A stretch of 64,000 nt of DNA. Origin: Desulfurococcales archaeon. Its GTDB lineage: Archaea > Thermoproteota > Thermoprotei_A > Sulfolobales > AG1. Position numbers and translations under genes: made by a program. Numbering within the stretch: the first letter of the stretch is position 1; the number at the start of each line of letters is the position of its first letter. The DNA lies in contig WYEN01000039.1 of NCBI GenBank assembly GCA_009903825.1, positions 1-64,000 on the forward strand, in the 5' to 3' direction. Shown here one piece after another: positions 3,780-32,131 of the stretch. The notes under the pieces were generated by a model, which was given only the letters and a program-made list of their open reading frames with translations, was not told where the DNA came from and did not search any database.

Positions 3780-3887
3780 ATATTCGTTCCTCGAGTATTA
3801 ATAAGCGACGACTAATATTTAAAAAAATTATTCACTTTATGTGAACATGATCAAGATTTTAAGAAGTATCTATGGCCAAAGAATCAG

Positions 3888-3983
3888 AGCCGGGGGCGGG
3901 ATTCGAACCCGCGAGTAAGCGGGTCTCAGGCGGATCTTAAGTCCACTGCAGCCCGCCGCCTTAGGCCGCTCGGCCACCCCGGC
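3888..3983 (-). tRNA. tRNA-Leu (anticodon UAA) with a 10-nt insertion in the anticodon arm
   Basis: Read on the minus strand, the acceptor GCCGGGG (3977-3983) pairs with CCCCGGC (3889-3895). The T arm is GCGGG-TTCGAAT-CCCGC, and a class II variable arm contains a GAG/CTC stem. The anticodon loop is CTTAAGA, giving UAA (Leu). The length is 96 nt including the discriminator, ten more than the usual 86. Removing ten bases from the 5-prime side of the anticodon arm leaves a perfect GCGGA/TCCGC stem, so a very short non-canonical intron is likely. The discriminator reads U rather than the usual A of tRNA-Leu. CCA is not encoded. Confidence 0.88.
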
Positions 3984-30430: not shown

Positions 30431-30508
30431 CAATCTGTTGAAAATCTTAATAGATGAATAAACTTATTTTAGTCTTCTATTATAAATTAGATAGGTGAGC
30501 TCTATTTA

Positions 30509-31602
30509 GTGAGTATAGAGTTGATAGAAAAACTCTTAAAAAGATACTAGAGATCTTAAGAAAATGGCAGGCTCCGGCAACAATATTATTAAGTCTATAT
30601 ATACCTCCTGGAAGACCTGTCGCTGACGTGCTGGATCTTTTGCGAAGAGAGTATTCTATAGCAGGAAATATAAAGCTTAAGAGAACTAGAGACTCTGTTC
30701 AGACAGCTCTTCAAATGGCTATAGATGATCTTGTGAGAATCCCTAAGATACCTGATAATGGTTTAGTAATATTTGCAGGAATAGATCCTGATAGTGGAGA
30801 ACAGATCCATATGTTGTTTGAGCCTCCAGATCCTGTCCCTATATTCTTTTACAGAACTGATAAATGGTTTCATATAGAGTTTCTAGAGCCAATGATCGAA
30901 GAGTCAGAGGTATATGGAATAATAATTATCGAAAGAGATCAAGCCACATTAGCATTGTTAAAACCAAGCGGCTTTGTGATCTTAGATGAGATCGAGGATT
31001 ATATACCCGGTAAACATAGTAAAGGCGGTCAAAGTCAGAGAAGATTTGATCGAATAATTGAACAGATGGTGGAGGATTTTTATAAAAAAGTTGGTGAAAG
31101 AGCTAACAGAGAGTTTCTGCCATATCTAGAGGAGAAGAAGTTGAAAGGCATATTAGTTGGAGGTCCTGGCTATTCAAAGATTGATTTTCTAAAGGGAGAA
31201 TATATGGATTATAGATTAAGATCTTTGGTTATAGGAGAGCCTATAGACGTCTCTTACCAGGGAGAGGCTGGCGTCAGAGAGCTTCTGGAGAAGGCTAAAG
31301 AGTTTTTGAAAGGACACAAATATGTTGAAGGATTAAAGGCTCTAGAAGAATTCAAATATCATCTGGCTAAAGATGATGGCCTGGCATTATATGGAAGAAA
31401 AGAGATTGAAGAAGCCTTAGAGATGGGAGCTGTAGAGAAACTCATTTTGTTAGAAGAGGTTGAGGATGCTGACAAGCTTGCTTCTAAAGCTTCTGAGAAA
31501 GGTGCTGAAGTGATCTATTTGTCTGAGAGTATTCCAGAGGGGATGTGGATTAGAAAAGTTTTTAATGGGGCAGTAGCGATCTTGAGATATAGAATTGATT
31601 AA
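30509..31602 (+). CDS. prf1: Peptide chain release factor aRF1, needing a -1 shift near its 5-prime end
   Basis: aRF1 recognises all three stop codons and releases the peptide. The GGQ motif is in HSKGGQSQRRFDR, and the N-terminal recognition region has NIKLKRTR. The conserved N-terminus (KKILEILRKWQAPATILLSL) lies upstream of the first in-frame canonical start (GTG 30628). No canonical start precedes it in that frame after TGA 30496-30498. In another frame, GTG 30509 with GGTGA upstream encodes MSIELIEKLLK and then hits TAG 30548-30550. A -1 slip at the A run 30538-30542 joins the two into about 364 residues. This may be a programmed frameshift or a lost A in the sequence. Confidence 0.88.
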
Positions 31603-31624
31603 AAAATATTAATTAGGTGAGCAT

Positions 31625-32131
31625 GTGTATCTAAGATATCTATCTAAGAGAGAAAGTAGAGAACTTCTCGAAAAACTTAAAAAAGATTTTAAACTTGTTC
31701 AAGAGTTTGATCATATTATCGTCTCAGAGACTGTTTTAAAGGATAAGAAAATAAAGATTTACATAGGAGTATCAAGTACAGAAAAAATTCCTCTAGCCAT
31801 AGATCTTGTGGAAGAGTTTATTCCCGCTATACATGCATTAAACAAAGATCTTATGAAAATAAATTATGTGAAAATAGATCAAGGAGCTATGCCCAGGATA
31901 TTAAATGGCGCAGATGTGATGGCTCCTGGAATAGTTGAGACATCTGATTTTAAAATCAATGATCTTGTCGGTGTAAGAGAGTTCGAAAGATCTCTTTATA
32001 TAGCGGTTGGAAAAGCTCTCATGAGCTCAGAAGAAATAAGACTTTTGAGAAGAGGTAAGGCTGTTAAAACTATTCATTACGCCGGCGATATCATCTGGAG
32101 AAATATTATAGATATCTTAAAGAAGATTTAA
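31625..32131 (+). CDS. PUA-domain protein, MCT-1-like
   Basis: A 168-residue protein. The C-terminal 80 residues form a PUA domain (YVKIDQGAMPRILNGADVMAPGIV, then VGVREFERSLYIAVGKALM). The N-terminal domain resembles the MCT-1/DENR-partner family, which binds tRNA or ribosomes in initiation and recycling. The start is GTG 31625, four bases after GGTGA. It directly follows aRF1 (22 bases), which supports a role in termination or ribosome recycling. Confidence 0.8.
   Translation: MYLRYLSKRESRELLEKLKKDFKLVQEFDHIIVSETVLKDKKIKIYIGVSSTEKIPLAIDLVEEFIPAIHALNKDLMKINYVKIDQGAMPRILNGADVMAPGIVETSDFKINDLVGVREFERSLYIAVGKALMSSEEIRLLRRGKAVKTIHYAGDIIWRNIIDILKKI

Follow-up and report, generated by a model that had tools for sequence, protein, structure and literature searches.

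Background

Programmed frameshifting that adjusts the supply of a release factor is known from bacteria, where prfB, the gene for RF2, carries a +1 frameshift site of consensus CTT_TGA_C preceded by a Shine-Dalgarno (SD) sequence (PMC3711429). Recoding is also known in the class-1 release factor genes of a/eRF1 type of two giant viruses, Mimivirus (R726) and Megavirus (mg280), for which autoregulation was proposed by the authors, who stated that such autoregulation is absent from the archaeal and eukaryotic homologues (PMC3521657). In crenarchaea, a programmed -1 frameshift has been reported in the fucA1 gene of Sulfolobus, and a 2021 review of archaeal recoding makes no mention of the archaeal class-1 factor aRF1 (PMC8211752). 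The GeneTack survey of frameshifted genes could not detect frameshifts lying less than 50 nt from the start codon (PMC3711429), which may be why a frameshift in aRF1 has been missed so far. No report of one was found in the open literature, to which the search was confined; an earlier report, in subscription journals or genome annotation notes, is possible.

Here we analyse the aRF1 gene in a stretch of 64,000 nucleotides from a Desulfurococcales archaeon (hereafter the window). The best explanation of its 5' end is very probably a programmed +1 frameshift at the gene's own stop codon, that is, an autoregulation of the prfB kind acting on a factor that is not homologous to RF2.

Results

An aRF1 gene without an ordinary start codon

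The gene and its surroundings comprise the following features:
30496-30498, plus strand: aRF1-frame stop TGA, 4 codons ahead of the first codon read after the proposed shift
30508-31602, plus strand: main aRF1 open reading frame, entered by the proposed +1 shift (TIGR03676, Pfam, 3agk, motifs)
31613-32131, plus strand: downstream neighbour, an archaeal PUA-domain protein (arCOG04150-like), given as context only

The identity of the product is supported by the full-length family model TIGR03676 (411.4 bits against a cut-off of 234.7), by the Pfam domains eRF1_1, eRF1_2 and eRF1_3, all above their cut-offs, and by 3agk as the best solved relative (E 5.6e-120), with other a/eRF1 structures also matching. 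The GGQ motif is present, NIKLK stands at the NIKS position, as it does in 3agk, and YRTDKWF stands at the position of YxCxxxF, a YxTxxxF variant of which has been described from Sulfolobus, Caldivirga and Hyperthermus (PMC2613156). By GGQ, NIKS and YxCxxxF the window protein thus belongs among the class-1 factors of the a/eRF1 family. The gene is single copy in its genome, where the other match is of low significance (E 8e-4, 25% identity) and is probably pelota. With no second copy, and with aRF1 found in every one of the 118 near-complete genomes of the order, the gene must be expressed.

The aRF1 frame is open from 30499 to 31602 (367 codons), directly after the in-frame TGA at 30496-30498, which rules out ordinary initiation further upstream in this frame. 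Its first ATG, GTG or TTG occurs only at codon 43, well inside conserved domain 1. The missing start noted in a first-pass annotation of this DNA is thereby confirmed, and the coordinates given there are right. A first start located more than 30 codons into the frame was unique to aRF1 among the 53 open frames of at least 150 amino acids in the window, and the gap is therefore not a matter of chance. From 30508 the main frame reads AGT GAG TAT AGA GTT GAT (SEYRVDRK...) for 364 codons plus stop. A tRNA-Leu (CAG) gene of 97 nt, on the minus strand at 3887-3983, was the sole tRNA gene detected in the window.

A start, a putative slip codon and a stop immediately upstream

Immediately 5' of this frame, with aRF1 in +1, the window reads GTG AGC TCT ATT TAG T (30495-30510), an element absent from the first-pass annotation (GTG AGC TCT ATT TAG, 30495-30509). 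Its parts and a box upstream of it, all on the plus strand, are:
30466-30474, plus strand: TATA-like box CTTATTTTA, lying some 25 nt (approximately) 5' of GTG 30495, by sequence reading only
30495-30497, plus strand: proposed aRF1 start codon GTG in the zero frame, also GTG at the same codon in the sister species
30495-30509, plus strand: zero-frame leader reading frame GTG AGC TCT ATT TAG (M S S I stop), of a geometry common to eight families
30504-30506, plus strand: proposed P-site slip codon ATT (NTT in 102 of 104 shift genes)
30507-30509, plus strand: in-frame stop TAG, then T, the proposed switch point (TAG, TGA or TAA in shift genes)

The product including the leader residues would comprise about 368 amino acids, with a predicted join (M)SSI-SEYRVDRK. 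One other open frame in the window, at 35587-34376 on the minus strand, fits a loose start-NTT-stop pattern, but unlike aRF1 it has a normal ATG at codon 19. The TATA-like box would give an almost leaderless mRNA, and a second A/T-rich stretch lies at 30480-30489, upstream of the GTG. In the Sulfolobaceae-like family (f11) a clear TTTTTAAG/TTTTATA box is found about 35 nt upstream of the ATG, a position which suggests an mRNA leader of only about 8 nt, and from their sequence the aRF1 mRNAs of families f1 and f2 look nearly leaderless.

Conservation of the +1 geometry across the order

We surveyed 150 genomes, namely a first set of 30, a further 119 of the order and one from a neighbouring family (f12) within the same class, and added 20 genomes from more distant lineages for comparison. 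A start, one to three sense codons, NTT and a stop, followed by aRF1 in +1, define the shift class, which contains 104 of the 150 genomes, in eight families with the neighbouring one included; because the class is defined by the pattern itself, the fair measure of its conservation is the fraction within each family. These fractions are 4/5 in f1, 25/30 in f2, 15/15 in f3, 4/4 in f4, 25/25 in f9, 1/3 in f10, 29/29 in f11 and 1/1 in f12, and the geometry was found in none of the surveyed genomes of f5, f6, f7 and f8. Named loci place Desulfurococcaceae archaeon AG1 (L032) in f1, Thermogladius (L038, L042, L043) in f9 and Fervidicoccus (L040) in f8. In the more distant lineages, within the same phylum, aRF1 starts in frame in the ordinary way.

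Within the 104 shift genes the slip codon is ATT (46), CTT (36), TTT (18), GTT (2) or TAT (2), the stop is TAG (73), TGA (29) or TAA (2), and the start, located 3-5 codons before the stop in 104 of the 150 genomes, is ATG (75), GTG (25) or TTG (4). The sister species L003 (G001), of the same genus and the closest genome, with an 84% identical protein, reads GTG GGC ATA ATT TAG, with an ATG just before. In f11, represented mostly by finished genomes, ATG AGT CTT is followed by TGA (28) or TAG (1), often with C next; the nine bases ATGAGTCTT and the T after them never vary in the 29/29 genomes, not even at wobble positions, and ATGAGTCTTT is the same at every position over the 29 genomes, whereas third positions downstream of the invariant site drop as low as 37%. 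Three f3 genes show natural swaps of the stop, with TAA in L084, TGA in L090 and TAA in L091 where TAG would stand, and keep the frame geometry. Next to the slip codon the protein has S, D, E or N according to lineage, and the codons concerned (AGY, GAN, AAY) all keep the zero-frame stop. Since stop and following residue vary only among codons that keep the zero-frame stop, and the f11 site is invariant, this stop appears to be under selection.

Several loci depart from the common arrangement. TTTAG is kept without a canonical zero-frame start in L006, L023 and L080; in the latter two (f2, genus g14) TTTAG(T) is preceded by a GTG 8 nt upstream, not 7, which suits neither a +1 shift nor a start in frame, and L006 (f1), from a low-coverage assembly, resembles them. 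L025 and L027 (f2, genus g25) read GTG ATG AAG TAT TAG C, keeping start and stop, with TAT as a poor +1 slip codon. L017 (f7) has no in-frame ATG, GTG or TTG; its ACG takes the place of an ATG in a relative, and GTG...GGT TGA C follows in the zero frame further downstream. This gene may use either an ACG start or a separate frameshift. In L107 and L108 (f9, genus g43) the aRF1 frame stays open for about 100 codons upstream (open frames of 465-468 amino acids), and the annotation may therefore be calling a long spurious N-terminus.

Coding evidence and the case against normal initiation

In 72 of the 104 shift genes the stretch before the conserved core offers no ATG, GTG or TTG in the aRF1 frame. 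In 68 of the 104 a stop in the aRF1 frame, often TGA inside ATGAGT, lies at most 4 codons upstream of the site, by which ordinary initiation is nearly excluded. From the slip site onward, codons with a single change showed a synonymous to nonsynonymous ratio of 1059:536 in the aRF1 frame, against 197:1266 and 181:1301 in the other two frames (pairs not independent). Likewise, third-position changes between slip site and core numbered 1725 in the aRF1 frame against 890 and 496 (pairs not independent). As most of these genes have no such start upstream, and the codons between slip site and core evolve as protein, ribosomes must enter the aRF1 frame at the site.

Evolutionary history

A quick tree of the aRF1 N domain (170 rows, 140 columns), which does not firmly tell gains from losses, requires five changes of the shift state. 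When the tree is rooted with the outgroup, f6, without the shift and weakly placed, splits first, followed by f11, with the shift, and then by the rest. This order fits an early gain with later losses in f5, in f7 together with part of f10, and in f8. The uninterrupted genes, found in f5-f8, part of f10 and part of one f2 genus, look like losses on the tree; in that f2 genus (L078, L079, L081) the same TTTAG stands in frame with a GTG, which looks like a recent loss of the shift.

Alternative explanations

The first-pass annotation had joined the frames through a -1 slip on an A5 run, starting from GTG 30509:
30509-30550, plus strand: earlier proposed frame GTG...TAG with A5 at 30538-30542, rejected here
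The sequence on which it rested is as described, GTG 30509 opening VSIELIEKLLKRY* up to the TAG at 30548, with A5 at 30538-30542; the window frames can indeed be joined in this way, and the A5 run is kept in the sister genome (CTCAAAAAGATC in L003). The proposed start, however, is GCG in the sister. Between the two genomes, differences in that frame almost all change the amino acid (V/A, L/W, K/G, L/I, L/S, Y/S), whereas most differences from the TTT|AGT codon onward are silent when read in the frame of aRF1. We reject the -1 model because its start is lost in the sister and the silent changes fall in the aRF1 frame rather than its own; moreover, a -1 geometry is not shared among relatives, and a +1 site with a start lies directly upstream. 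A slip of this kind is thus very unlikely, and the combination of a conserved slippery run with a conserved upstream-frame start, as expected of the fucA1 type, is not found. What does hold of that proposal, and is well supported, is the idea that an archaeal class-1 factor frameshifts at its own stop as prfB does; its site, direction and start codon were wrong. Independent reads with six A residues, or uninterrupted frames in relatives, had been named there as what would expose a sequencing or assembly error. Uninterrupted frames do occur, but only in the groups listed above, and 104 of 150 genomes carry the shift geometry. The window comes from a 126-contig assembly, and frameshifts at 5' ends are common artefacts; yet the same geometry recurs in 104 independent genomes, single-contig finished ones included (f11, f9, f3), and a single-copy gene of an essential type with intact motifs does not look decayed, so that error or decay is hardly credible.

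It is also unlikely, if less so, that the leader serves as a regulatory mini-ORF and that aRF1 synthesis begins, directly or by re-initiation, at some non-standard codon close to the slip site, with no frameshift. The leader is very short, with its stop overlapping the first main-frame codons, archaea can initiate at unusual codons, and L017 offers ACG in place of ATG. Against this, no near-cognate start is conserved, for which a non-standard aRF1 start was rejected: 49 of the 68 tightly bounded genes also lack CTG, ATA, ATT, ATC and ACG between the frame stop and the core. Nor would a mini-ORF explain NTT in 102 of 104 slip codons or the recurrence of CTT TGA C. Slippage of RNA polymerase on a short T run could restore the frame in part of the mRNA, the site having three to five T, but most sites have only three or four, and T runs this short are not known to be slippery for RNA polymerase; conservation of the adjacent stop codon would be left unexplained, making this a highly improbable account.

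Proposed mechanism

For the +1 frameshift, the site geometry, its conservation, coding in the shifted frame, the absence of an ordinary start and the single gene copy are directly supported; that the ribosome shifts at this codon, how it slips at ATT and that the level of aRF1 sets the ratio of products we infer from sequence. Initiation would take place at GTG 30495, and the ribosome, having read GTG AGC TCT ATT, would stall with P-site tRNA-Ile on AUU and UAG (30507-30509) in the A site. With plentiful aRF1 the short peptide would be released at UAG; with scarce aRF1 the peptidyl-tRNA on AUU would slip +1 onto UUU (30505-30507), and reading in the +1 frame (AGU GAG UAU AGA...) would yield full aRF1. 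The net effect would be a negative feedback on aRF1 of the bacterial prfB kind.

A tRNA with a G34 anticodon that leaves CTT or TTT pairs well again on UUU, and ATT keeps two of three pairs (wobble); the slip codon of the window is thus poorer in re-pairing than CTT or TTT. Scored with the genome's own 16S tail (GGATCACCTCCT), a procedure that gives a spacing of 3 for the E. coli control, SD pairing 3 nt from the slip codon was not consistently present in the shift genes, the spacing being mostly 7-8 or 14-16. No stimulatory RNA structure was detected downstream of the site in the shift genes (mean z -0.16). As the leader has only 3-5 codons, peptidyl-tRNA drop-off could compete with the slip.

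Discussion

The aRF1 site is real, conserved and functional-looking. For the order as a whole (the Sulfolobus/Desulfurococcus group) we consider it likely that the only class-1 factor is made via a +1 shift at its own stop, through a switch that arose independently of prfB, acts 3-5 codons from initiation without an SD at the distance seen in prfB, and was lost on several occasions; since aRF1 reads all three stop codons, any one of them would serve. If true, a core cellular gene of archaea would carry a conserved programmed +1 frameshift, and two domains would clearly have converged, in release factors that are unrelated, upon one slip sequence (CTT TGA C) and one logic of feedback. For these species, the annotated N-termini of aRF1 may then be wrong, and constructs used in the laboratory may be truncated. 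A test system is at hand in genetically tractable species such as Sulfolobus acidocaldarius.

Comparison with known systems

With fucA1 the locus would share a programmed frameshift in a crenarchaeal gene, but fucA1 is an enzyme gene shifting in the -1 direction on a slippery run, with most relatives full length. The likeness to Mimivirus R726 and Megavirus mg280 would lie in recoding, frameshifting included, within an a/eRF1-family gene; unlike aRF1 here, these belong to giant viruses and combine the frameshift with readthrough of a second stop. The closest parallel to the proposed shift is prfB: a single gene for a class-1 release factor shifts in the +1 direction at an early stop, recognised by that very factor, after an NTT slip codon, with the rest of the gene in +1 (ATT TAG T in the window), and CTT TGA C is identical in many f11 aRF1 genes. 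The two differ in that aRF1 is not homologous to RF2 and is read by an archaeal ribosome, that the stop is TAG in the window and in most families, TAA also occurring, and that ATT and TTT slip codons are common. The leader of E. coli prfB has about 25 codons, against 3-5 in aRF1, where no SD-like stimulator stands consistently at a spacing of 3 nt from the slip codon. The window gene, which encodes an aRF1-type protein and not a bacterial RF2, is therefore not a prfB, but we propose that it works like one.
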